DNA from: Solemya velum gill symbiont
Lineage (GTDB): Bacteria; Pseudomonadota; Gammaproteobacteria; Chromatiales; Chromatiaceae
Assembly (NCBI RefSeq): GCF_000787395.1
Contig: NZ_JRAA01000002.1
Span: 496,001-560,000, forward strand
Reading direction: 5' to 3'
Length of the DNA stretch: 64,000 bases
Shown: piece by piece, positions 2,706 to 19,433 of the stretch
Numbering within the stretch: position 1 is the stretch's first letter
Layout: every line of letters begins with the position of its first letter
Made by a program: the position numbers and the translations under genes
The notes under the pieces: generated by a model
The model's input: only the letters and a program-made list of their open reading frames with translations
What the model was told of the DNA's origin: nothing
Database searches by the model: none

Positions 2706-3935
2706 ATGAAATTAAGTCGTAAAAACACATCGTTTGAAAAATCCGGTGAAAAGTATCTCATCTCGGAGATCGAGTCTGTTACGAAAATAAACCCAACCAT
2801 ATTCGATAGGATTGCTGGCTATTTTGGCATGGCAATTGCCGTTATTGGTGTACTTTCGTTTATGTTTGGCGAGTTCCTTCTGGCTGTAATCTTTGTCGTG
2901 ACTGGCGGATTATTAGGCTTCAAATCGAATTTCGGTCATGTTGAATACCAGGTAAAAATGGCCGATCAGGATAATATTGAATTTAATAAAGAGGACTTCG
3001 AGAAACTCAAGAAGGGAGTTGAAAATAATTCTCAGCACCTGGTGATGACAGAAGAGAAGAGAAAGGGTGGTATCTGGCCGATTATCAACTCCTCATTAAT
3101 CGTGGTGGTCGTTGGCTATTTTTCCCTCACAATATTGCTTCATTCAGATTGCACTGGTGATTGTGTTGATGGTCATGGTGTCTTTGTCTGGAGCAACAGT
3201 GATGAGTATGCCGGCCAATGGCGTAACGGAATGAGACATGGACAAGGCTCCTTTCTTTGGGCAAATGGGAATAAATATGTTGGTGACTGGGTTAATGACA
3301 AAAGAACTGGTCAAGGCACTTTTACCTGGTCTGACGGAACCATATACATCGGTAAGTTTTTAGAAGACAAAATCACTGGCCATGGTACGAAAACATATAC
3401 AGATGGAGACAAATATGTCGGAGACTGGCTTGATGGAGAACTATACGGTCAGGGGGTATATACATGGATAGAGGGCGATGAATATTCAGGCGACTGGGTA
3501 AGAAACGATCACTCTGGACATGGTACGAAAACCTGGGCAGACGGAGATAAGTATGTAGGTGACTGGCTAAATGACGAGAAACATGGCTATGGTGTCTACA
3601 CATGGCCGGATGGCTATCAATATGCAGGTGATTGGGTGAATGGTGAAAAGACTGGCCACGGCACATATACCTGGCCAAGCGGCACAATATACGAAGGTGT
3701 TTTTTTAAAGGGTGATATAACCGGCCACGGGACAAAGACCTGGACAGATGGAACTAACTATGTGGGAGAGTGGCTTAATGACAAAGAACATGGCCATGGC
3801 ACTTACACATGGTCAAGTGGCAACAAATATGTAGGTGAATGGAAGGAAGGAAATCAACACGGGCGTGGAAAGAAGATCTGGAATGACGGCGACGTAGAGT
3901 ATGGAGAATGGAGAAATGGTGAGAAAATTGATTAG
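2706..3935 (+). CDS. Membrane-anchored MORN-repeat protein
   Basis: The 409-residue protein has three probable membrane segments (about 36-52, 54-72 and 125-148) and then a C-terminal array of about eleven MORN repeats of 23 residues (YVGDW...G..HG.GT.TW). The repeat phase is exact at DNA level: near-identical blocks start at 3381 and 3519, 138 bases or two units apart. By positive charges (Lys/Arg-rich N-terminus and 73-124 loop) the repeats would face the periplasm, which is inference. MORN repeats bind lipids or proteins in other systems; no enzymatic domain is visible. It lies just behind the sodium channel gene and is probably cotranscribed with it. Confidence 0.85.
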   Translation: MKLSRKNTSFEKSGEKYLISEIESVTKINPTIFDRIAGYFGMAIAVIGVLSFMFGEFLLAVIFVVTGGLLGFKSNFGHVEYQVKMADQDNIEFNKEDFEKLKKGVENNSQHLVMTEEKRKGGIWPIINSSLIVVVVGYFSLTILLHSDCTGDCVDGHGVFVWSNSDEYAGQWRNGMRHGQGSFLWANGNKYVGDWVNDKRTGQGTFTWSDGTIYIGKFLEDKITGHGTKTYTDGDKYVGDWLDGELYGQGVYTWIEGDEYSGDWVRNDHSGHGTKTWADGDKYVGDWLNDEKHGYGVYTWPDGYQYAGDWVNGEKTGHGTYTWPSGTIYEGVFLKGDITGHGTKTWTDGTNYVGEWLNDKEHGHGTYTWSSGNKYVGEWKEGNQHGRGKKIWNDGDVEYGEWRNGEKID

Positions 3936-4064: not shown

Positions 4065-4997
4065 ATGATACATTTCGTCACGACCAAATTGCACGGCTAT
4101 ACAGTGACCAATCTAATCGATAGACAGGGTGCTGAGCTCTGTAAACACTGGAACTATGAGAATTTGTTTGCACAGACGGACTTACCACAAGGAACCTGGA
4201 TATTCACAGATCATGAGCGACTTTTCCCCACAACCTTGCAAGGCGCGGCGTTCATCGCAAAACAACTGCAACTCAGAGGTGACCGGGTATTGAATAATCC
4301 GGCATTAGTGCGCAGCCGATATGAAGTGCTCCGCAGGTTACAGGAAGCCGGGATAAACCGATTTTCTGTTTACAGAGCTGATTCAAACCCTCAGCCGCGT
4401 CGGTTTCCGGTATTCATCCGCAATGAGCATAACCATTTGTCCGATGGAATATTTCTGATCCAGGACCAGGAGGAGTTGGATGAAGAGCTTGAACTCATGG
4501 AGTCAAAAGGTATACCACTGATCGGCAAACTGGTAATCGAATATTGCGGAGAAGAGTTCCTTCCAGAAACATGGCGCCGCTTCTCATCCTATTGCATCGG
4601 AGGAAAAATTATCAGCCACCATACGGGCTTCGACGATCAGTGGATCGTCAAGGACGGCTTTGATGCAGAGAAATTGGAGAATCATCCAGACAGGGAGGAG
4701 TTGCTGTCTATGGAAAGGAATTTTGTTATGCAAAACCAGTATGACGAAATCCTGCGGGAAGTCTTTTCGATCGCACGAATCGATTATGGCCGCGCCGATT
4801 TTTCGATATATGATGGACAAATCCAGGTTTTTGAAATCAATACGAATCCAATGCATGGCCGTGAAGAAGAAGTTCTGGCTCAAAGCCATCCCGGCAGACG
4901 AGATACATTAATAAGAAGCGAAGACATACTCCAGCAGGCAATCAAGGGGCTTCACGGCAACAGCCTCGATACACCCGGGCAATCAACGGGAAATTAA
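4065..4997 (+). CDS. ATP-grasp-fold ligase-like protein
   Basis: The 310-residue protein looks like a divergent ATP-grasp enzyme. A central lysine/glutamate block (GKLVIEYCGEEF, about 155-165) and a C-terminal metal-binding block, YGRADFSIYDG followed by VFEINTNP (E257, N259), match the ATP- and Mg-binding parts of the fold. ATP-grasp enzymes join a carboxylate to an amine or thiol through an acyl phosphate. It is the first gene of a five-gene operon and overlaps the next gene by one base (TAATG). No strong ribosome binding site is visible before the ATG at 4065; an upstream ATG at 4050 ends after five codons. The substrate is unknown. Confidence 0.7.
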   Translation: MIHFVTTKLHGYTVTNLIDRQGAELCKHWNYENLFAQTDLPQGTWIFTDHERLFPTTLQGAAFIAKQLQLRGDRVLNNPALVRSRYEVLRRLQEAGINRFSVYRADSNPQPRRFPVFIRNEHNHLSDGIFLIQDQEELDEELELMESKGIPLIGKLVIEYCGEEFLPETWRRFSSYCIGGKIISHHTGFDDQWIVKDGFDAEKLENHPDREELLSMERNFVMQNQYDEILREVFSIARIDYGRADFSIYDGQIQVFEINTNPMHGREEEVLAQSHPGRRDTLIRSEDILQQAIKGLHGNSLDTPGQSTGN

Positions 4998-5989
4998 TGC
5001 TCGAATTAAGCCTGTCAGATCAATTCACTTTCAATTCCAGGGAATACCGGGGCTTACTCAGGAACGCACAGGCAACTCCTTTTCAACACCCTGAATGGCT
5101 GTCTTCATACTACCGCTATCTTGTGGCACATCCTGAGAGTACGGCGATGGTGATCCTGGGCCACTCAAAGAGTACCGGAGAGCTTCAACTGGTTGTTCCG
5201 TTAGTAAAAAGGTTGTCAGAAAATGGATGCATTATCGAATCCGCCTATTCGGATGTGACGGACTATGCATGCCCGGTGGTGCATACAGGTTTACTTGCCA
5301 ACCGGGAAGCACTCTCTTCTCTCCCGGGTGATCTGATCAAGCTATTAGGGCCACACAAGCTCCTTCATATACAACCGGTGCGAGAAGAAGAGTTGCCATT
5401 ATGGAAACTCTTGATACGCCAATCTCCCGTCAAACTTGACTATGGCAGGCACCAGGTCACCCCGTCCCTGCCCTTTAGCCCATGGCGTGATCGAAACTTC
5501 GGCAAGGCGAGACGCAGCCAGCTGGATAGAAAACTCAGACGCCTTGAGGATCGAGGTCATGTTCGCCTGGAGATTGTCCCCACATCACATGCTGCTGGGG
5601 CGATCGAATGGGCACGCAGGCATCGGGAAGACCGTTTTCCAGACGATCCGATTCAGCGACCGGAAACACTGAGATTTTATAGTGAGATCGCCTCATCCGG
5701 GGAAGCTGCATCATTCACAAGAACATACCGTCTTAGCTGTGGAGGCGATACAGTAGCTGTCTGTTTCGGGATAGTTGATGAAATGCAGTTTTATTACCTG
5801 GTCCTGGCATGCGATTATCATAATTACGCAGCCCACTCTCCCGGTACGCTCATACTTGATCTCGCAATGGGTGACTGGGTTTCAGGTGGCGGGAAAATAT
5901 TTGATTTTACGATTGGTGACGAGGCCTATAAGAAAAACTTCCGCTGTGACAAGAGCCCCATGTATGAATTCATGGTCCGAACAGATTAA
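4997..5989 (+). CDS. GNAT-fold acyltransferase, FemAB/CelD (BcsL) type
   Basis: The 330-residue protein matches the double-GNAT family (FemAB-like, 'CelD/BcsL' acetyltransferase) found in polysaccharide and peptidoglycan-modifying operons. Visible landmarks are a basic block (KARRSQLDRKLRRLEDRG, about 171-188) and the C-terminal FDFTIGDEAYKKNFRCD, typical for this family. Members transfer acyl or aminoacyl groups to amines of sugars or amino acids. Its start codon overlaps the stop of the ATP-grasp gene by one base, implying coupled translation. A PIG-L deacetylase follows after 18 bases, so an amine freed by that enzyme could be its acceptor; this is inference. Confidence 0.75.
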   Translation: MLELSLSDQFTFNSREYRGLLRNAQATPFQHPEWLSSYYRYLVAHPESTAMVILGHSKSTGELQLVVPLVKRLSENGCIIESAYSDVTDYACPVVHTGLLANREALSSLPGDLIKLLGPHKLLHIQPVREEELPLWKLLIRQSPVKLDYGRHQVTPSLPFSPWRDRNFGKARRSQLDRKLRRLEDRGHVRLEIVPTSHAAGAIEWARRHREDRFPDDPIQRPETLRFYSEIASSGEAASFTRTYRLSCGGDTVAVCFGIVDEMQFYYLVLACDYHNYAAHSPGTLILDLAMGDWVSGGGKIFDFTIGDEAYKKNFRCDKSPMYEFMVRTD

Positions 5990-6007
5990 CCGGAAAGAGT
6001 AGCGGGA

Positions 6008-6748
6008 ATGAATAGTAGTGAGCATGTCATTTGCGTGGTTGCACACCCGGACGACGAAGTCCTTTGGTTCGCCTCGATACTTAAAGAGGTGGATAAAGTC
6101 ATATTCGTTTTTAATGACTGTGTCGATGCGCCCGGTATCGGCAACAAGCGTACGCATGCAGTCGGCCAACTCCCCTATGACAATGTCACACTTGCGATAC
6201 CGGAGGCTGGAACCTACGACCCCATGCATTGGAGGCACCCGAAATTGTCCGAATTCGGGCTGTACCTGGACCGGGACGCTGCTAGCAGAGAGACACTCCG
6301 GCTCTATGAGCGAAACTATCATTCGATTAAAACGCAACTGGAGAGTCTCATCCCGGAAAAGTCTATTGTCTATACGCATAACCCCTGGGGTGAATATGGT
6401 CATGCAGATCATGTTCAGGTCTATAGAGCCCTGAGTGATATACGCGACTCATTGCAACTAACTCTCAGGGTATCTCCTTATATCTCGGAACAGGCAGAAC
6501 CACTTGCACAGCTATATACTGAAAGCAGCTCTTTGCCACCAGAAAGAAAGCCTGTCGATTCTGACTTCACGAACCAGGTTGTGGATATATACCAACGAAG
6601 TGGTTGCTGGACATGGGCAGACGACTGGAAGTGGGATGAGGAGATGTATCTGTTGCCTGAGCCCCAACTAGCTAAAGAGACAAATAGCCTGACAAATATG
6701 GTGAACAGTACCTATATCAAAAAAATACCTTCATCGGTGACCAAGTGA
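6008..6748 (+). CDS. PIG-L family (LmbE-like) N-deacetylase
   Basis: The 246-residue protein carries the zinc-binding signature AHPDDE (His13, Asp15, Asp16) and a second block, NPWGEYGHADH (about 125-135), that supplies the remaining histidine ligands. These are the hallmarks of the PIG-L/MshB/BshB fold, whose members remove acetyl groups from N-acetylglucosaminyl compounds or mycothiol-type conjugates. Length and motif order are normal. It sits between the GNAT-type acyltransferase and the glycosyltransferase of a tight operon, which suggests that its substrate is the product of that glycosyltransferase. Confidence 0.85.
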   Translation: MNSSEHVICVVAHPDDEVLWFASILKEVDKVIFVFNDCVDAPGIGNKRTHAVGQLPYDNVTLAIPEAGTYDPMHWRHPKLSEFGLYLDRDAASRETLRLYERNYHSIKTQLESLIPEKSIVYTHNPWGEYGHADHVQVYRALSDIRDSLQLTLRVSPYISEQAEPLAQLYTESSSLPPERKPVDSDFTNQVVDIYQRSGCWTWADDWKWDEEMYLLPEPQLAKETNSLTNMVNSTYIKKIPSSVTK

Positions 6749-6779
6749 GTTTCTACATGAGCGGCATATTTCTCCCAAG

Positions 6780-7994
6780 ATGAAAAGACGAATAAAAATA
6801 GGCTTCATCACTCTCTTTTACCCTCCGATAGGTGGTGGCGGCGAAATCTATCTGAAAAGAATGATCGAGGCCCTGGATCAATTCGACCTCTCTCTATGGA
6901 CCTTGTCACCCGGTTCTGAAACTTTCTCTCAACCTAAAGATGACCACTACGACATCGAATATTATGGAGACAGCCCGCACATTGATTACACGACATTGGG
7001 GCACTGGTTCGAGGAGCACTACCAGGATATTTTCGCAACTATTCTGTCGTGGGTGAATAGATCAAACTGTGACCTCTTGATTCTGAATTCACCGATTACC
7101 TACTTTGATGAAACAAGAGAACTGGTTGATAAGCTCAGGGAAAAATGCCCGGTAGGCAGCATCTTGCATGATGTACCAGGAGAGTCATTTTCAAAGCTGA
7201 TGGAAAGCTACGATAAATGTGAAGACTGGGAGCAATCACTCGCAGACACGCATCATGAACGCATCCATATATCCAAAGCCAGGGAGTTTGGAGTATTTGC
7301 CTCCCCGTTCCAGATAGGAACAGACTTCACCATCTACAACAGTGCATGGGCACGGGAGTTCTATGACCCGGAAGGAGAGATGAAAAATATCATCTTCCAC
7401 CCACTGGTCAAACAGACAGACGAAGAACCCGAACTCGATTTGAATCCTGTGGATTTTACAATCGTCAATCCCCTGCCCATGAAAGGGGGAGCTCTTTTTC
7501 TCGCATTAGCGAATTTTCATTTTCGAAACGATAAAATACGGATATTAGGAGGTGGTTACAATTCAGCCATGCTGCAATTGGAGCCCTATCTTCGTCCTGT
7601 TTCATCCGGTTTCTACCACGGAAAGATGAATGGGAATATCGAGGTGCTGGATTACGTTAGTAACATGTCTGAAATCTATCGCAATACCAGGGTACTACTC
7701 CATCCGACACGGATTGAAGGCTATGGAATGACCGCTGCAGAAGCACTGCTTGAAAATTGCCTTGTCGTCACGACTGATATACCCGGTGTTATTGAAGGCG
7801 TAGGCAATGCGGCATTACAGATGCCATACTTCGCAACTCCCCAGGAGTGGGCTGACGCGATTTCAGACATGATAAAAAACCGTGAAGAATGGAAAACAAG
7901 AATAGCTGAAAGGGTCAGGCTCCTTAAAGATCGACAGGCCAGGGAGGTCGTTGAGCTTGAGAGATTCCTGGCACATATCGTACAAGATAGTTAA
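6780..7994 (+). CDS. Glycosyltransferase, GT4-like (GT-B fold)
   Basis: The 404-residue protein starts with a glycine-rich loop after a hydrophobic strand ([16 protein letters not shown], about 14-29), typical of GT-B enzymes, and has the C-terminal EGYGMTAAE signature (E-x7-E) that contacts the sugar nucleotide in GT4-type retaining transferases. The middle region is divergent, so donor and acceptor cannot be named. It is fourth in the operon, 31 bases after the PIG-L gene and 11 bases before the RidA gene. MshA and BshA, the glycosyltransferases of mycothiol and bacillithiol synthesis, are GT4 enzymes that also work with a PIG-L partner. Confidence 0.8.
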
Positions 7995-8005
7995 TTGGTG
8001 ACCTT

Positions 8006-8362
8006 ATGAACAAAACGATTGAACGCTTCGAAACCGGCCCACGTATGAGCCGAATTGTTAAACATAATGGAACGATCTATTTATGCGGCCAGGTTTGTAA
8101 AGATGCCACCCAGGGTATCAAGGAACAAACCGAGAGCATGCTGGAGAAAGTGGATACTCTTCTTGAACAGGCTGGCAGCGACAAGGAGCATATTCTCTCC
8201 GCAACTATCTATATCAAGGACATGCAAGATTTCGCTGCAATGAATGAGGTCTGGGACAACTGGATTCCCGAGGGCCATGCCCCGGCACGTGCATGTGTTG
8301 AAGCATCCATGGCACGTGATATTCTACTGGTAGAGATATCTGTTGTTGCAGCTGAAAAGTAG
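8006..8362 (+). CDS. RidA family (YjgF/UK114) protein
   Basis: The 118-residue protein is of usual length for the RidA family and contains the conserved arginine block [10 protein letters not shown] (about 90-99), which binds the carboxylate of imine or enamine intermediates. RidA proteins hydrolyse reactive 2-imino acids or, in subgroups, act in specialised pathways. It is last in the five-gene operon, 11 bases after the glycosyltransferase. The convergent operon next door encodes a flavin amino-acid dehydrogenase, an enzyme class that makes imines, so a shared role is plausible though unproven. Confidence 0.9.
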
Positions 8363-8386: not shown

Positions 8387-9496
8387 CTACCCGGTCGGAA
8401 ACCTGTCGGCTCGAAATGGCTCGATGGGAAGGCTGCTTTGCCCATCCAGAATCAGTTCACTGAGGATGCGCCCCACCACAGGTGATAACTGGAAACCGTG
8501 GGCAGAGAAGCCGAACGCGTGAAAAAGCCCCGGCGCATTGATAGATGGTCCAATGACCGGAATATGATCCGGTGTAAATCCCTCGATACCAGCCCAGAAA
8601 CGTACAATTCGTGCATCTGCCATTTGCGGGAATAGCGTTGTCACAGTTCGTGCACTTTCGGCCATCGTCCTGTAATCAATCTCTGAGCGTTCATTGACCA
8701 TATCCAGCCTGGCCATATGTGCACCGCCAATAATGACGGTGCCATTCTGCATCTGTTTGAATGAGAGCTTGCGTGATGCTGCACCCACAACCGGATCAAT
8801 AAAGTGAGGCAGGCGTTCAGTGACCATCAGAGTCGGAGCACCAGGTTTGACAGGAATCTGATCACCGATAGTACTGGCCAGCCTGGCACCCCAGGCACCA
8901 GAGGCATTCACTACGACGGGGGCCCGAATCTCCCCCATGTGCGTCGAAGCAAGCCAGTTATCACCCTCGCGTTCAAGCGCATTAAGTGCGGTATGACTGT
9001 GGAAATCTGCACCAAGTGATTCGGCCTTGCGGCGGAACGCGGTAGTCGCGTGGTAGGGCCTGGCAAACCCGTCATCTTCACACCAGAGTGCACCAAGGCA
9101 ATGCGGGGCGAGCGCGGGGACAAGCTCATAAAGCTTGTCACGATTAATCATCTGTTCGTGCTCATAACCCAGCTCACGCACTAAAGCAGCTCGTGTCTCC
9201 AGCAGTTCCATATCTGCATCACTTTCTGCCACCCGTACCTGGCCGGACAACTTAACATCACAATCGCTGTCCACCAGTTCCTGTATATGCGACCAGATTC
9301 TTGATGCCTCTACCGTGAGCGGTATCTCAGCCGGGTTACGGTTGAGTTTGCGCAGGCCTCCGGCATTGACGCCGGAGGCATGACGGCCGGAGTGATCCTT
9401 GTCCAGCACGATACTCTTGACGCCACGCTTTGCGAGATAGAGTGCTGTGCAGGCACCCATCAGGCCCCCGCCAATAATCAGGACATCACTCTTCAC
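8387..9496 (-). CDS. FAD-dependent amino-acid dehydrogenase, catalytic subunit (DAO fold)
   Basis: The 369-residue protein starts with a dinucleotide-binding loop (IIGGGLMGACTA) and has the C-terminal GFSAHGFQLSP block of D-amino-acid-oxidase-type flavoenzymes such as HcnC, opine oxidase B and D-hydroxyproline dehydrogenase beta. It oxidises a C-N bond of an amino acid or imino acid. Its start overlaps the end of the upstream subunit by 11 bases, and the three-subunit order (small [2Fe-2S] protein, NAD(P)/FAD protein, DAO subunit) matches HcnABC and the hydroxyproline or opine enzymes. Which substrate it uses cannot be read from the sequence; the length is closer to the latter than to HcnC. 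Confidence 0.85.
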   Translation of the reverse strand: MKSDVLIIGGGLMGACTALYLAKRGVKSIVLDKDHSGRHASGVNAGGLRKLNRNPAEIPLTVEASRIWSHIQELVDSDCDVKLSGQVRVAESDADMELLETRAALVRELGYEHEQMINRDKLYELVPALAPHCLGALWCEDDGFARPYHATTAFRRKAESLGADFHSHTALNALEREGDNWLASTHMGEIRAPVVVNASGAWGARLASTIGDQIPVKPGAPTLMVTERLPHFIDPVVGAASRKLSFKQMQNGTVIIGGAHMARLDMVNERSEIDYRTMAESARTVTTLFPQMADARIVRFWAGIEGFTPDHIPVIGPSINAPGLFHAFGFSAHGFQLSPVVGRILSELILDGQSSLPIEPFRADRFPTG

Positions 9497-10880
9497 TATT
9501 CTGCTCCATGCCCGCCAATTGCCCGATAGTGATCGGCTTGACCGGCGGACGTACCCGGTAGGGCTCGATATCGCGTGGATTGGTGCCGGTCTCGTAAGCG
9601 ATCAACTGTGCGACCGAATCAGCACACTGGCGTCCCTGGCAGGGCCCCATTCCGCAACGGGTATGGAATTTCACTGCATTGGGGGTTTGATGTCCCTCTT
9701 CAAGCACCTTGCGAATATCACCTGCTGTCACCTCTTCACAACGGCACAGGATCTCTTCATCTGTGGGGTGCGTGAGCATTATGCTTGGCGGACGGAACAT
9801 AGCATCCAGAAATGGGCGGATCAGGAGCTCGTCCTTCATCCAGCGCAGATCTTTCTTTGCCTTCTTATCTCGTTCGCCTTGGCTTATATGGCCCATCTGA
9901 TGAATGGCATTGAATGCCGCCAGCCGACCGTTATGTTCGGCTGTACGTGCACCACCGATACCAGCATTGTCTCCAGCCACGCTGATACCCTTGATATCTG
10001 TTGCGCCCCACACATCATTGACGGGACGCCAGCATTGCTGCGCGGTGTTCCACTCGTGCGCACAACTCGCAGCACGACTCAGATGGGTTTGTGGAATGAC
10101 GCCAAAATGAGTTAACAGCAAGGGTGTTTTGATCGAGTAGAGTTTGTTTCGGTGGATATAATCCACTGCCTGTACGTGTCCACCTCCAATTGCACGCAAA
10201 TCCTTAACACCATGCCGGGTCAGTACACCTGCTGCCTTGAGGTCACGTTTATAACGCAGCCCCTTGGTAATATAGTGGTGTGCCAGCAGCGCTTTAGGTA
10301 AATAGGGTGCTGCACGTAACCAGTTACTCATTGGCTGTACATCCAGTACCGCCTTCACATCTACACCTGCATTCAGGTATTGCCATGCAAGCAGTAACAG
10401 AAGTGGACCTGAACCTGCCAGAACCACACCATCAGAGGGCACCAGGCCCGACTGCTTCAAAAGGATCTGTCCGGCACCGGCATTCATCACACCCGGCAAT
10501 GTCCATCCCGGAAATGGAACCGGTCTCTCCTGAGCACCACCTGCAATGATGACCTGGTCAGCATGGATCAAGTGCGCCCTGCCCTGGTGAAGAACGCCCA
10601 GTTCAAGCTGGCCATTAAGGGACCACACAGAGGCATCACTAAAATAGTGCGTGTTCGATGAGCGCATCAGTTGCACCAGCTTTTCACCACGCTGATACTC
10701 ACTACCGAGCAGTTCCGCACGTTGCGTCGGCATGGACTCGATATTTCGGTAAATCTGGCCTCCGGGTGCAGGCTGCTCATCCAGCAAGGCAGTTTCTATG
10801 CCATGTTCAGAAGCTGTTGTGGCCGCAGCCAGTCCGGCCGGACCAGCGCCGATAATGACCAGGGGGTAATGTGATTTCAT
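9486..10880 (-). CDS. NAD(P)/FAD oxidoreductase subunit with BFD-type [2Fe-2S] domain
   Basis: The 464-residue protein has an N-terminal FAD-binding loop (IIGAGPAGLAA), a second nucleotide-binding loop (VLAGSGPLLLL) and a C-terminal cysteine cluster, CRCEEVT followed by TRCGMGPCQGRQC, that binds a [2Fe-2S] centre. This is the architecture of HcnB, opine oxidase A and the D-hydroxyproline dehydrogenase alpha subunit, which pass electrons within a heterotrimer. It overlaps the upstream ferredoxin-like gene by four bases (ATGA) and the downstream catalytic subunit by 11 bases, so the three are surely translated together. Confidence 0.88.
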   Translation of the reverse strand: MKSHYPLVIIGAGPAGLAAATTASEHGIETALLDEQPAPGGQIYRNIESMPTQRAELLGSEYQRGEKLVQLMRSSNTHYFSDASVWSLNGQLELGVLHQGRAHLIHADQVIIAGGAQERPVPFPGWTLPGVMNAGAGQILLKQSGLVPSDGVVLAGSGPLLLLLAWQYLNAGVDVKAVLDVQPMSNWLRAAPYLPKALLAHHYITKGLRYKRDLKAAGVLTRHGVKDLRAIGGGHVQAVDYIHRNKLYSIKTPLLLTHFGVIPQTHLSRAASCAHEWNTAQQCWRPVNDVWGATDIKGISVAGDNAGIGGARTAEHNGRLAAFNAIHQMGHISQGERDKKAKKDLRWMKDELLIRPFLDAMFRPPSIMLTHPTDEEILCRCEEVTAGDIRKVLEEGHQTPNAVKFHTRCGMGPCQGRQCADSVAQLIAYETGTNPRDIEPYRVRPPVKPITIGQLAGMEQNSEE

Positions 10881-11164
10881 TCACCGGCCCCGTGTTGGCG
10901 ACGGATACGCATGCCTTCAGCTACCTTTATCATGCAGGCCTGGCGGTTTGGTTTACCATCGATTTCGACCAGGCAGTCGAAGCATACCCCCATCATGCAA
11001 TAAGGAGCACGCGGCTTGCCGGAGATAGTTGTTGTGCGGGTATGGATCAGTCCGTGGGCAAGTGCGACTGCTGCGACACTCTCCCCAGCCGGTACCCGCA
11101 CACTCGTGCCTTCTATCTCGACCATGACGGTCTCGGTGGGGTTCTCCTCAAGGCGTTTGAACAT
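10877..11164 (-). CDS. Small [2Fe-2S]-binding subunit (HcnA/LhpF-like)
   Basis: The 95-residue protein has the plant-ferredoxin-type cluster ligands in YCMMGVCFDC with a further cysteine in RQACMI. It is the third subunit of a flavin amino-acid dehydrogenase of the HcnABC/opine oxidase/hydroxyproline dehydrogenase type and would carry electrons away from the flavin. Its stop codon overlaps the start of the next subunit by four bases. The ornithine-cyclodeaminase-family gene lies 44 bases upstream on the same strand. Confidence 0.85.
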   Translation of the reverse strand: MFKRLEENPTETVMVEIEGTSVRVPAGESVAAVALAHGLIHTRTTTISGKPRAPYCMMGVCFDCLVEIDGKPNRQACMIKVAEGMRIRRQHGAGE

Positions 11165-11208
11165 GATGTCGAACCATTTGAGGGGCGCAGTTGGCGCCCG
11201 GTATCAAT

Positions 11209-12267
11209 CTACAGACGAATTTGTTTGGCTATGTCTGCATGCTCGAAAATCATGGATTTTTGCAGGTCCAGGGCCGTTCCGATGCCAGCTGACATAGCCC
11301 TATTATACATAGAGAGTCCAATAGCCACATCGATATAGGCCAGGCCAACAGCATTAAAATAGATACGTTCCTGATCATTTTCGCGCCCAACCTTGTGACC
11401 GCTGACCAGCTCATGCAAATCAGCATGGATTCTGTGGCTGTCGATATAGCCTTCCTTGTACATGCGGCTCAGCGTCTGCGTTCTATGGGTGACTGTCTCC
11501 CAGTCGTCGCAGACAATTTTATCACTCTGCAGTGCGACGTCATATTCATCTTCCCAGCCGCCAATATGGCTGTAAAAGGCACCCGGCTTGACCCAGCTGG
11601 CGTGTAGCAGTGGTGCCTGTGCGCTGGTTGCTGTAACCAGGATATCTGCCCCCTCCATGGCCTTCTTTCCATTCGTACGCGCAGCAATAAATTCCATATC
11701 CGGAAACAGGTGTGACAGCTCGTCTATAAATGCATCTTCCTCTTCCGGCAGCTTGGATGCGACACGGCACTGCTTGAGTGATGGACGCACAGTCTTCATG
11801 CCAATAAGGTGCATTTTGGCCTGCTCGCCGGATCCAATAAAACCAATCACCTCGGAATTCTCAACAGCCAGGTGCTTGGCAGCAATGGCGCCCATGGCCG
11901 CAACTCGCATGTTCGAGGCAAGGGTGCCCTCAACTACCGCAATGGGAAATCCGTGTTTGATCTCGGAGAGAAGGAAAATAGCTGAAAGGTTCTGTTTGTC
12001 GTGTTTTACCGGATTGTTTGGAAACACTGAAACCCATTTCACGCCACAGACCTTTTCGTCCAGCAGTGTCGCGGGTAGACAGTTGATTCGATCCTGGCTT
12101 GACTGGTTGAAAATCTGCACCACTTTCTCAGGAAACAGGACGCCACCTTCTTCATAGGAGATAAGGGTCTTTTCCGCTGTTTCGATAACCATGCGCATAT
12201 CAAAACAGCCTGCCTCCAGAAGGTCTTCCTGGGACAAATAGGTAAAACTGATTCTATGCTCGTTCAT
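11209..12267 (-). CDS. Ornithine cyclodeaminase / mu-crystallin family protein
   Basis: The chosen ATG at 12267 gives 352 residues and has a strong ribosome binding site (AGGGGGAG, about 10 bases upstream); a longer frame from 12297 lacks this. The protein has an NAD(P)-binding loop (VIGFIGSGEQAKMHL) and the family's ATSAQAPLL block. Members include ornithine cyclodeaminase, ketimine reductases (pyrroline-2-carboxylate reductase) and 2,3-diaminopropionate synthases. Because it heads an operon with a flavin amino-acid dehydrogenase, a ketimine or cyclic-imine reductase role is favoured, but this is inference. Confidence 0.85.
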   Translation of the reverse strand: MNEHRISFTYLSQEDLLEAGCFDMRMVIETAEKTLISYEEGGVLFPEKVVQIFNQSSQDRINCLPATLLDEKVCGVKWVSVFPNNPVKHDKQNLSAIFLLSEIKHGFPIAVVEGTLASNMRVAAMGAIAAKHLAVENSEVIGFIGSGEQAKMHLIGMKTVRPSLKQCRVASKLPEEEDAFIDELSHLFPDMEFIAARTNGKKAMEGADILVTATSAQAPLLHASWVKPGAFYSHIGGWEDEYDVALQSDKIVCDDWETVTHRTQTLSRMYKEGYIDSHRIHADLHELVSGHKVGRENDQERIYFNAVGLAYIDVAIGLSMYNRAMSAGIGTALDLQKSMIFEHADIAKQIRL

Positions 12268-12520
12268 TGATCGAAACTCCCCCTGTTTTTTTGCCACGTA
12301 CCGAATATCGCAGCATTATCTGAACATTATTTAATCAAGGCTTTTCTAGTGTCAAATCGAATCTCCCGCAGGGAAATTTCGATGCATCCTGATGTAAGAA
12401 AAATTTCATCCCGACAGTGCAAGAAAAGAGTAAATATAAGTCAAATGTCAATACCGAAAGTGATGTGTTGATGTAGCATTAAAAAGATTGGCGTTTAAAA
12501 AACTAGAGAGATCAACATTC

Positions 12521-15531: not shown

Positions 15532-17013
15532 ATGCAGAAACCAATCTGGCTTGCCTCATATCCCCGTAGCGGAAATACCTACCTGCGAACTATTCTATTT
15601 CACTGTTTTGGACTCAGATCAGCAAGCATTTATCCTAATGACCTGGGTACAAATGAATACCTGCAGAAACAGGTTGGTCATATTGAACATATTGATGGGA
15701 AAATCCAATTCCCTCCCGGTACAAAATTCCCAGTAATCAAAACCCATGAAGTGCCACCTGATAATAATCCGACTATCTACCTTGTTCGTAACGGTTACGA
15801 TGCAACACTCAGCCTGCATGACTGGCTTGACAACAATGTAGATTTATCCGATATCATCATCGGAAAACAACCTTTTTCTTTAACTTGGTCACGTCACCTG
15901 GAAGCCTGGCACCCGTGGAACCGGCCAAACACCCTTTTTCTCCGTTTTGAGGAAATCACCACAGACTTGCCGTCATTATTAAAGCAGTTGAGCACCTTTC
16001 TTAATCTGCCCATATTGTCTGAAACCGTTCCAAGCCGCGATCAGATTGCAGCAAAGGATGGAAAATGGATACGCGCACAACACAGCCATAAAAGCAGGAT
16101 ATTTACTTCGAAGCAGCGTCATCAGTTCAACCACGAAAATGCTGCAATGATGAAACAACTCGGCTACCCACTGGTTAGTGAAAAATTGACTCATCAGCAG
16201 TTGCCTGTTGTGAGTCATAACAACAAGGAGTATCTGCTTGGAGGAATCACATCTACTGACAACCTGAAAGACTTCTTTAGAATGATCAGGCCGGTCGCGA
16301 TAACAACTCCACTGATTCGAATTGGCGAAAACAACGATGGCGGTTACCTTGTTCCTGACGATTTGGATTTGATCCAGGCCTGTTTTTCTCCGGGTGTATC
16401 AGATATCTGCCAGTTTGAAGAGGATCTTGCCGAACGCGGAATCAAGTCCTTCATGACCGATTATTCAGTAGAAGCAGCACCTGTTGAAAACCCCTTGTTT
16501 CACTTCAAGAAGCGACACCTGGGATTAACAAATGACAGTCAGACAATTCGGTTGTATGACTGGGTTAATCAGGAGATACCGGAGGCAGGTGATGACCTGG
16601 TTTTACAGATGGATATTGAGGGCGCTGAGTACCAGGTATTACTGGATACTCCTGCAGACACCTTACGAAGATTCAGAATAGTGGTTATAGAGTTCCACGG
16701 ATTAACACGACTTTTCGCATCCGCAATATTTACATATATGCAGCAGGCTTTCAGGAGACTGACAGATAATTTTGAGGTTGTACATATGCACCCGAACAAC
16801 TGCTGTCCAGTGAGGATGCATAAGGATTTTGAAGTACCCGATGTCCTTGAATGTACCTTTTATCGTAAAGATCGGGCTCATGCTGTTATCTCTGATGCAC
16901 AATTGGCGTTCCCCCATGCACTTGATGCTCCGAACGTACCGCATAAAGAGGATATCAAGTTGCCCACATGCTGGAGCTCAGACGAATGGCAGGGAAATAT
17001 TCAACTTTTGTGA
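15532..17013 (+). CDS. Fusion: sulfotransferase + FkbM-type methyltransferase
   Basis: Residues about 1-225 form a PAPS-dependent sulfotransferase: the 5'-phosphosulfate loop is YPRSGNTYLRT (about 10-20) and the 3'-phosphate block is YLVRNGYDATLSLHDW. Residues about 240-490 form an FkbM-like, SAM-dependent methyltransferase: IGENNDGGYLVP, SDICQFEEDLAERG and DIEGAEYQVL followed by IVVIEFHGL. A single protein could thus sulfate and O-methylate the same glycan or lipid. The join shows no stop or frame break. GDP-fucose genes lie just downstream on the other strand. The acceptor is unknown. Confidence 0.85.
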   Translation: MQKPIWLASYPRSGNTYLRTILFHCFGLRSASIYPNDLGTNEYLQKQVGHIEHIDGKIQFPPGTKFPVIKTHEVPPDNNPTIYLVRNGYDATLSLHDWLDNNVDLSDIIIGKQPFSLTWSRHLEAWHPWNRPNTLFLRFEEITTDLPSLLKQLSTFLNLPILSETVPSRDQIAAKDGKWIRAQHSHKSRIFTSKQRHQFNHENAAMMKQLGYPLVSEKLTHQQLPVVSHNNKEYLLGGITSTDNLKDFFRMIRPVAITTPLIRIGENNDGGYLVPDDLDLIQACFSPGVSDICQFEEDLAERGIKSFMTDYSVEAAPVENPLFHFKKRHLGLTNDSQTIRLYDWVNQEIPEAGDDLVLQMDIEGAEYQVLLDTPADTLRRFRIVVIEFHGLTRLFASAIFTYMQQAFRRLTDNFEVVHMHPNNCCPVRMHKDFEVPDVLECTFYRKDRAHAVISDAQLAFPHALDAPNVPHKEDIKLPTCWSSDEWQGNIQLL

Positions 17014-18355: not shown

Positions 18356-19433
18356 CTAACCGGGCAGTTCGGTCCCGATTTGCTTGCAAAGCTGTTCACG
18401 CTGCGCCTCCTTTATGTCAGTGCTTACCATCTCCTTGACCATCTCCTCAAATGTTATTTTGGGCGTCCATCCCAACTTCTCCCTCGCCTTCGTGGCATCT
18501 CCCAGCAGTGAGTCAACTTCTGTGGGACGAAAATAGCGTGGGTCTACAGCGATAATAGCTTCTCCGGATTCACTATCGATACCCTTCTCATTCACCCCGG
18601 AACCAGACCATTTGATCGCAATCTCCAACTCTTTGCATGCAAAGTTAACGAAGTCACGCACTGAATACTGCATACCGGTCGCAATGCAAAAATCCTCAGG
18701 CTCATCCTGCTGCAACATGAGCCATTGCATTTCAATATAGTCGCGAGCGTGTCCCCAGTCCCGTTTTGCATCAAGGTTTCCGAGGTAGAGGCAGGACTGC
18801 AAACCCAATTTGATACGGGCCAGTGCACGGGTAATTTTTCGCGTAACAAAAGTCTCACCACGCATTGGCGACTCATGATTGAAAAGGATGCCGTTACATG
18901 CATACATACCGTAAGCTTCACGGTAGTTAACCGTAATCCAGTATGCATAAAGCTTGGCTACTGCATATGGGGAGCGGGGATGAAATGGTGTGTTTTCATT
19001 CTGAGGCATTTCTACCGCTTTACCGTAGAGCTCTGAAGTTGAAGCCTGGTAAAAACGGGTTTTCTCTTCAAGGCCAAGAATACGAATCGCCTCTAGTATT
19101 CGCAGCGGACCTATTGCATCAGAGTTTGCTGTATATTCCGGCTCTTCGAATGAAACATGCCACATGTGACTGCGCAGCAAGGTTATAAATCTCATCCGGT
19201 TGTACTTGTTGAATAATCCGAACCAGGCTGGATGAATCAGTCATGTCTCCATGATGAAGAAAGAAATGCAGATGATCTTCATGTGGATCCTGGTAGAGGT
19301 GATCAATACGATCGGTATTGATCAGGGAAGTTCGGCGCTTGATGCCATGAACCTCGTACCCCTTCTCCAACAGGAATTCTGAGAGATATGCACCATCCTG
19401 ACCTGTAACTCCCGTGATAAGAGCTGTTTTCAT
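18356..19433 (-). pseudogene. gmd: GDP-mannose 4,6-dehydratase, interrupted by a frameshift
   Basis: The N-terminal frame (from ATG 19433, ribosome binding site AAGGA) reads [20 protein letters not shown] up to NLAAQSHV, and the rest ([20 protein letters not shown] onward, with catalytic [10 protein letters not shown]) is in another frame. The canonical family sequence runs straight through [15 protein letters not shown]. Here four bases stand where one codon belongs, at 19157-19160, so one extra base breaks the gene. The rest is intact to 18356. Either the gene is recently inactivated or the base is an error. GDP-fucose would not be made if the break is real. Confidence 0.85.

Follow-up and report, generated by a model that had tools for sequence, protein, structure and literature searches.

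Genes encoding a predicted ATP-grasp-type protein (A), a FemX-like protein (B) and a family-4 glycosyltransferase (GT4) form the conserved core of a gene cassette found in a 64,000-nt stretch of DNA, hereafter the window, which belongs to the 2.70 Mb genome (10 contigs) of the Solemya velum gill symbiont. In the window, where the GT4 gene is named D, the core is accompanied by genes for a PIG-L type deacetylase (C) and a RidA protein (E). Predicted folds and analogies to known systems suggest that this is a mobile biosynthetic cassette attaching an amino acid or a short peptide to a sugar conjugate through an amide bond, a reading to which we assign a probability of about 0.5. The GT4 would link a sugar with an acceptor, either a small molecule or a lipid, and PIG-L, where present, would remove an N-acetyl group, freeing an amine. 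B would form an amide bond, most likely from aminoacyl-tRNA, and A would form another one, from a free carboxylate and ATP. Computation shows the gene content, the A-B-GT4 core, the folds as predicted, the active-site motifs kept and the parallel history of A and B; from these we infer the order of the steps, the donors, the acceptor, the product and the mobility of the cassette. More tentatively, the products could constitute an undescribed class of glycoconjugates, in which two amide-forming enzymes, an ATP-driven one from a new ATP-grasp family and a tRNA-dependent one, load amino acids onto a glycoside, the cassettes of 3-5 genes having spread between Proteobacteria and Planctomycetota.

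Gene A is rare. It was matched in 1/96 genomes sampled from the family (the window's own), in 2/147 from the order (own and a weak one), in 8/369 from the class (own, five strong but distant at 35-41% identity, and two weak) and, at E<=1e-40, in 5/398 from the phylum (own and four distant). D was found at E<=1e-30 in only one of 299 genomes, again the window's own. Scanning a single genome for each species yielded 242 relatives of A, the best 80 of which were kept. Since several of these loci lie on short contigs, absences count as lower bounds; the relatives' gene starts were placed by hand, and the picking of open reading frames (ORFs) by longest frame and GC bias is rough. Among the best 80, 12 loci are set apart by 46-55% identity. 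Five are from Mesorhizobium, one is from Rhizobiales, one from a Hyphomicrobiales metagenome-assembled genome (MAG), one from Dongia deserti, one from a Planctomycetota MAG, and three from other MAGs, labelled Rhodospirillaceae, Proteobacteria and Alphaproteobacteria; the set is mostly alphaproteobacterial.

In all these 12 orthologous loci B directly follows A on the same strand, overlapping it by 4-40 bases, and B is found in none of the 68 other kept loci. Because adjacency and order are the same in 12/12 and B is missing in the others, the pairing is more than chance. A GT4 gene, called U, lies just before A in 11 loci (Pfam was checked on two), overlapping it by 1-4 bases in ten and being separated from it by 84 bases in the eleventh. 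The Planctomycetota MAG locus (L020) is the sole one featuring the window order A-B-C-D, with a window-type D after C. D is 49% identical to the L020 GT4, and the GT4s located upstream of A in the 11 other relatives are different; U and D align partially and without significance, and their orthology is not supported. PIG-L is found at four loci (L020, L021, L024, L028) and a family-2 glycosyltransferase (GT2) at six (L022, L023, L025, L026, L027, L031; Pfam checked on one). The two never occur together in the 12 loci, and L029 and L030 have neither. RidA is absent from all 12 at E<=1e-3, was rejected as a member of the unit, and is probably a passenger; eleven other window neighbours tested at the same threshold were similarly missing. 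The earlier note on this DNA had proposed to look for co-occurrence of the five families in the same order; a compact A-B-GT4 set is seen in 12/12 loci, with the order A-B constant, but PIG-L and RidA do not recur in this way.

The five ORFs of the window (Table 1) all start with ATG and are separated, in the order A to E, by -1, 18, 31 and 11 bases; the coordinates and gaps given in the earlier note were confirmed. Pfam scores, in bits with cut-offs in brackets, are 80.3 (22) for Acetyltransf_6 in B, 35.1 (28.2) for PIG-L in C, 44.1 (27) for Glyco_trans_1_4 and 39.3 (26.4) for Glycos_transf_1 in D, and 96.9 (27.3) for Ribonuc_L-PSP in E. Between positions 3900 and 8450, promoter-like sites (4 vs 6.8 in shuffles) and terminator-like sites (1 vs 3.7) are not above chance.

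Table 1. Genes of the cassette region in the window
Gene	Positions	Strand	Assignment and predicted role
A	4065..4997	+	ATP-grasp-type, without Pfam match; predicted ATP-dependent carboxylate-amine ligase
B	4997..5989	+	Acetyltransf_6, two GNAT domains, predicted fold like FemA/FemX; putative transferase of aminoacyl (or acyl) groups to an amine
C	6008..6748	+	PIG-L type deacetylase, zinc motifs AHPDDE and EYGHADH; predicted to free the amine of a sugar
D	6780..7994	+	Family-4 glycosyltransferase; Pfam glycosyltransferase group 1
E	8006..8362	+	RidA/L-PSP protein, last in the gene string

A and B share a parallel history. The 13 A proteins that have B as a partner group on a single branch (SH-aLRT 98) of a quick A tree with 85 rows, a clustering equalled in 0/500 shuffles. 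Pairwise distances of A and B correlate with r = 0.97 (0/5000 permutations), a value inflated by shared species history. The window joins L020 in both trees (support 100/100 and 100/99), and L021 is placed differently in the A tree and in the B tree. Since the gammaproteobacterial set is closest to the Planctomycetota one, and sampling of related genomes did not turn it up, these comparisons suggest horizontal transfer of the gene set, the alternative being a misbinned contig in the Planctomycetota MAG. An empty-site comparison with the genus neighbour G006 found no anchor gene there.

The B model is of high quality, with a predicted local distance difference test score (pLDDT) of 90.9, and its two GNAT domains are in the FemX arrangement. 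The predicted fold ranks nearest to FemA (Z 18.9, root mean square deviation (rmsd) 4.6, 283 aligned residues), FemX (18.4) and the proteins Sbb17 and Sba18 (18.2-18.6; Sbb17 18.6, rmsd 3.3, 269 aligned), rows within one Z unit being tied. The PDB titles of Sbb17 and Sba18 designate an aminoacyl-tRNA-dependent peptide synthase, and two of the three entries contain streptothrisamine. L-PGS/MprF (15-16.8) and tandem GNATs (14.5-15.3, among which MAB_4324 at 15.3 and glucosamine N-acetyltransferase at 14.7) rank lower, in a comparison from which MshD itself was left out. B is accordingly placed nearest to FemA/FemX and aminoacyl-tRNA-dependent ligases, above GNATs of the coenzyme A (CoA) type. 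PDB sequence searches with B found no relative. K312 of B is invariant in 13 sequences and may match Lys305 of FemX, a residue named in PMC12945691, by a mapping that is inferred.

Pfam finds nothing for protein A at E<=0.1, nor for four of its relatives (L020, L024, L015, L017) at E<=0.01, and a PDB sequence search with A alone found no relative. Its assignment as ATP-grasp-type is a prediction, based on the comparison of a model of middling quality (mean pLDDT 69.8, built from 13 sequences) and on a short motif match. VIA-align relates the model to RimK (Z 11.3, rmsd 5.2, 228 aligned), ArgX (10.6), LysX (9.8) and PsnB (9.7), and Foldseek puts D-alanine ligase first. A short D...E.N stretch similarly aligns with D-alanine ligases (E 0.0015). 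Residues D245, E257, N259, R119, K155, E159 and K196 are kept in 13/13 A proteins; among these D245, E257 and N259 make up the D...E.N site. The earlier note had named a lack of ATP-binding residues as something that would defeat the conjugate-pathway idea. In C, both zinc motifs (AHPDDE, YGHxDH) are conserved in 5/5 C-type PIG-L proteins and align with MshB.

An amino-acid amide on a sugar is the most economical reading because of three precedents. The type B flagellin glycosylation locus of Clostridioides difficile comprises three glycosyltransferase genes followed by genes for FemAB-like (CDR20291_0244), ATP-grasp (0245) and ornithine cyclodeaminase (0246) proteins, and thus shares a glycosyltransferase + FemAB-like + ATP-grasp unit with the cassette; in mutants of GT3, the ATP-grasp gene and the cyclodeaminase gene, flagellin lacks its terminal peptidylamido-sugar (PMC5207246), the cap containing taurine, alanine and glycine (PMC5207245). 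That set yields an amino-acid-capped sugar. The families differ: the C. difficile ATP-grasp is Pfam 13535, the FemAB-like protein Pfam 02388 and the glycosyltransferases Group II (PMC5207246), while A has no Pfam match and B is an Acetyltransf_6 protein. The second precedent is the FemX-like Orf11, which turns streptothrisamine into glycylthricin with Gly-tRNA (PMC12945691). Ligases of this streptothricin type (Orf11; Sbb17, Sba18) resemble B in predicted fold, but Sbb17 and Sba18 are only 10-11% identical to it, and the available text of the streptothricin review PMC12945691 does not mention an ATP-grasp. The third is the association of ATP-grasp and GNAT-fold ligases in operons for peptide-type metabolites, discussed in general terms in PMC2922099. 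Literature searches, including what is available of PMC2922099 and PMC8939145, found no description of the A-B-GT4 cassette. The analysis names a small and testable gene set (A, B and GT4), present in named Mesorhizobium strains, as well as a family of ATP-grasp type without Pfam match. Should B turn out to use aminoacyl-tRNA, a tRNA-dependent way of making sugar-amino-acid conjugates would be added for Gram-negative bacteria.

Several observations weigh against the amide-on-sugar reading. The A model falls under pLDDT 50 at residues 8-22, 101-131, 153-156 and 300-310, which include R119 and K155, and a profile comparison of A with the GshB of the same genome gave no meaningful alignment. A similar fold does not establish what a protein does, and the B model is also matched by CoA-dependent tandem GNATs, at Z 14-15. 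The acyl donor assigned to B is tentative, and so it is for HfsK, for which FemX is likewise the closest solved structure (PMC5362036). C-type PIG-L was found once each in 5/13 carrier genomes and was not found in the other eight, and the deacetylation step is therefore not general; the profile, built from five sequences, would miss other PIG-L proteins, which may exist there. Finally, the best PDB sequence match of D is a fragment of the mannosyl transferase WbaZ-1, and two B paralogues flank a wzx-type PF01943 gene (G824:C5:209577-213130) in the genome carrying L030.

These last two points suit a possible, though less probable, alternative, namely that the cassette decorates a cell-surface glycan, an amino-acid-bearing sugar being added in the cytoplasm to a lipopolysaccharide core, a glycolipid or an exopolysaccharide, with no flippase or polymerase of its own. 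HfsK is an Acetyltransf_6 protein, and the carriers belong to Gram-negative lineages, which also counts for this view. So does the part that the FemX-like Caulobacter HfsK plays in the holdfast adhesin (PMC5362036). HfsK resembles B for its tandem GNAT domains and for FemX as nearest solved structure; its work in the holdfast adhesin sets it apart, and no ATP-grasp partner is mentioned in the available text. Distant A relatives in Methylohalomonas (L015, L016) are found by eye among glycosyltransferases and a flippase-like ORF, and two upstream GT4s and one GT2 of the relatives match, all below cut-off, models for glycogen, teichuronic-acid and exopolysaccharide synthesis among others. Yet PF01943 genes, present in 12/13 carrier genomes, are never near the cassette: none is beside it in the 12 relatives, in a search confined to this flippase family (PF13440, Wzy and ATP-binding cassette (ABC) export routes lay outside it), and only two relatives have one on the same contig, 157 kb and about 824 kb away, the contigs of L020, L021 and L023 being short. 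The window's own genome has no PF01943 match, vs 13/14 control genomes with one. The ten neighbours tested at L020, L024, L026 and L030 are ordinary genes (an ABC ATPase, two EamA, a glyoxalase, a DAHP-synthase family protein, a Dabb protein, a cyclopropane synthase, a GGDEF-EAL protein, a fumarase), one of the ten being without family. The earlier note had said that homologues within large polysaccharide loci with wzx/wzy genes would defeat the conjugate-pathway idea; no wzx-type PF01943 gene accompanies any orthologous cassette, and a classical wzx polysaccharide locus was rejected. The broader suggestion of exopolysaccharide modification persists as the glycan-decoration rival, favoured by the company of the distant A relatives and by the B paralogues flanking a wzx-type gene in one carrier. 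Three Mesorhizobium genomes (G816, G820, G821) contain further B paralogues, arranged in tandem.

The gene set recalls mycothiol and bacillithiol synthesis, the comparison made in the earlier note, and a true thiol pathway, in which the ATP-grasp would take over the cysteine ligation of MshC, would fit the broad enzyme classes (GT4, PIG-L, ligase, GNAT-fold protein) and the alignment of the PIG-L zinc motifs with MshB. The upstream GT4s of L024 and L031 also score 78.9 and 85.8 bits to BshA and 60.8 and 81.2 to MshA. All these values are, however, far below the cut-offs (273.7 bits for BshA, 462.5 for MshA), as are those of D in the window (17.4 and 15.2, respectively) and of C to the MshB model (16.4 of 224.35). 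In a search confined to the five operon proteins, no NCBIfam hit at E<=0.1 was to MshC or BshC. B ranks nearest to FemX-like ligases, PIG-L is optional, and RidA is not conserved. Glutathione synthetase is encoded by most carriers: 11/13, including the window's genome, pass the cut-off, one has it in two sub-cut-off pieces, and the search of the Planctomycetota MAG found none. The same model matches 8/14 control genomes, over cut-off in 3/14. Because C-type PIG-L is missing in eight of the 13 carriers, Msh and Bsh cut-offs are not reached and glutathione synthetase is widespread in the carriers, the mycothiol/bacillithiol reading is weakened to the point of being highly improbable, and the close analogy was dropped: the cassette resembles the mycothiol pathway in outline only.

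Modification of a peptide or protein, with A ligating residues to it, as the sister family of A may do next to peptide beta-hydroxylases, and the glycosyltransferase glycosylating it, is unlikely. RimK, LysX/ArgX and PsnB, which are among the nearest folds of A, act on proteins or peptides. Enzymes of the aKG-HExxH type modify peptides of the ribosomally synthesized and post-translationally modified class (PMC12636437), and a gene of this type is found within 2 kb of distant A relatives in 38/68 loci. The label derives from NCBIfam TIGR04267, and was over cut-off in 4/4 such proteins tested. No such gene is found beside the ATP-grasp at any of the 12 orthologous loci, and the two A subfamilies hence keep different company (38/68 vs 0/12). 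The only TIGR04267 match in the window's genome is on contig C4, the operon being on C3. Moreover, inspection by eye of the 129 bases before A, in the window alone, revealed no convincing precursor ORF, and a precursor peptide at this place was discarded; the flanks of the relatives were unsearched.

A second lead is this sister family, whose genes accompany those of aKG-HExxH peptide hydroxylases. The pairs of distant A relatives and HExxH genes, often divergent, are scattered among L032-L099, and occur also at L015:10681-13016 and L017:148-2015; each could be an undescribed peptide-modifying pair. At L018 an added protein is similar, below cut-off, to HprK-related kinase A and PqqD-type chaperones. 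Two A-type ATP-grasp matches are in tandem at L032:2521-4301. The aKG-HExxH-type protein of the window's genome is encoded at L107:8934-9920 (-) on contig C4, where no A-like protein was found. Plasmid records feature two distant A relatives, labelled hypothetical protein, and three distant B relatives.

Just upstream of the cassette, the window encodes at 2706-3935 a protein with ten MORN-repeat matches. Convergent with the cassette, a row of genes at 8387-12297 (-), encoding DAO-type, FAD-dependent, small 2Fe-2S-like and ornithine cyclodeaminase-family proteins, looks like an amino-acid oxidation operon. The ornithine cyclodeaminase gene (11209-12297), an echo of the C. difficile set, was considered as a member of the cassette and rejected, as it is on the other strand and is present at 0/12 orthologous loci. 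Farther on, a single ORF at 15532-17013 looks by eye like a sulfotransferase with an FkbM-like methyltransferase after it, and the GDP-mannose dehydratase-like ORF at 18356-19195 (-), as called, seems by eye to miss the N-terminal nucleotide-binding part. In Dongia (L024:12901-15179) and in FK1 (L028:12873-15151), an ABC ATPase gene and a 507-amino acid ORF follow PIG-L at 115-131 bases on the same strand. The ORF has no Pfam family (Pfam was run on L024 only), and the pair is possibly an exporter.

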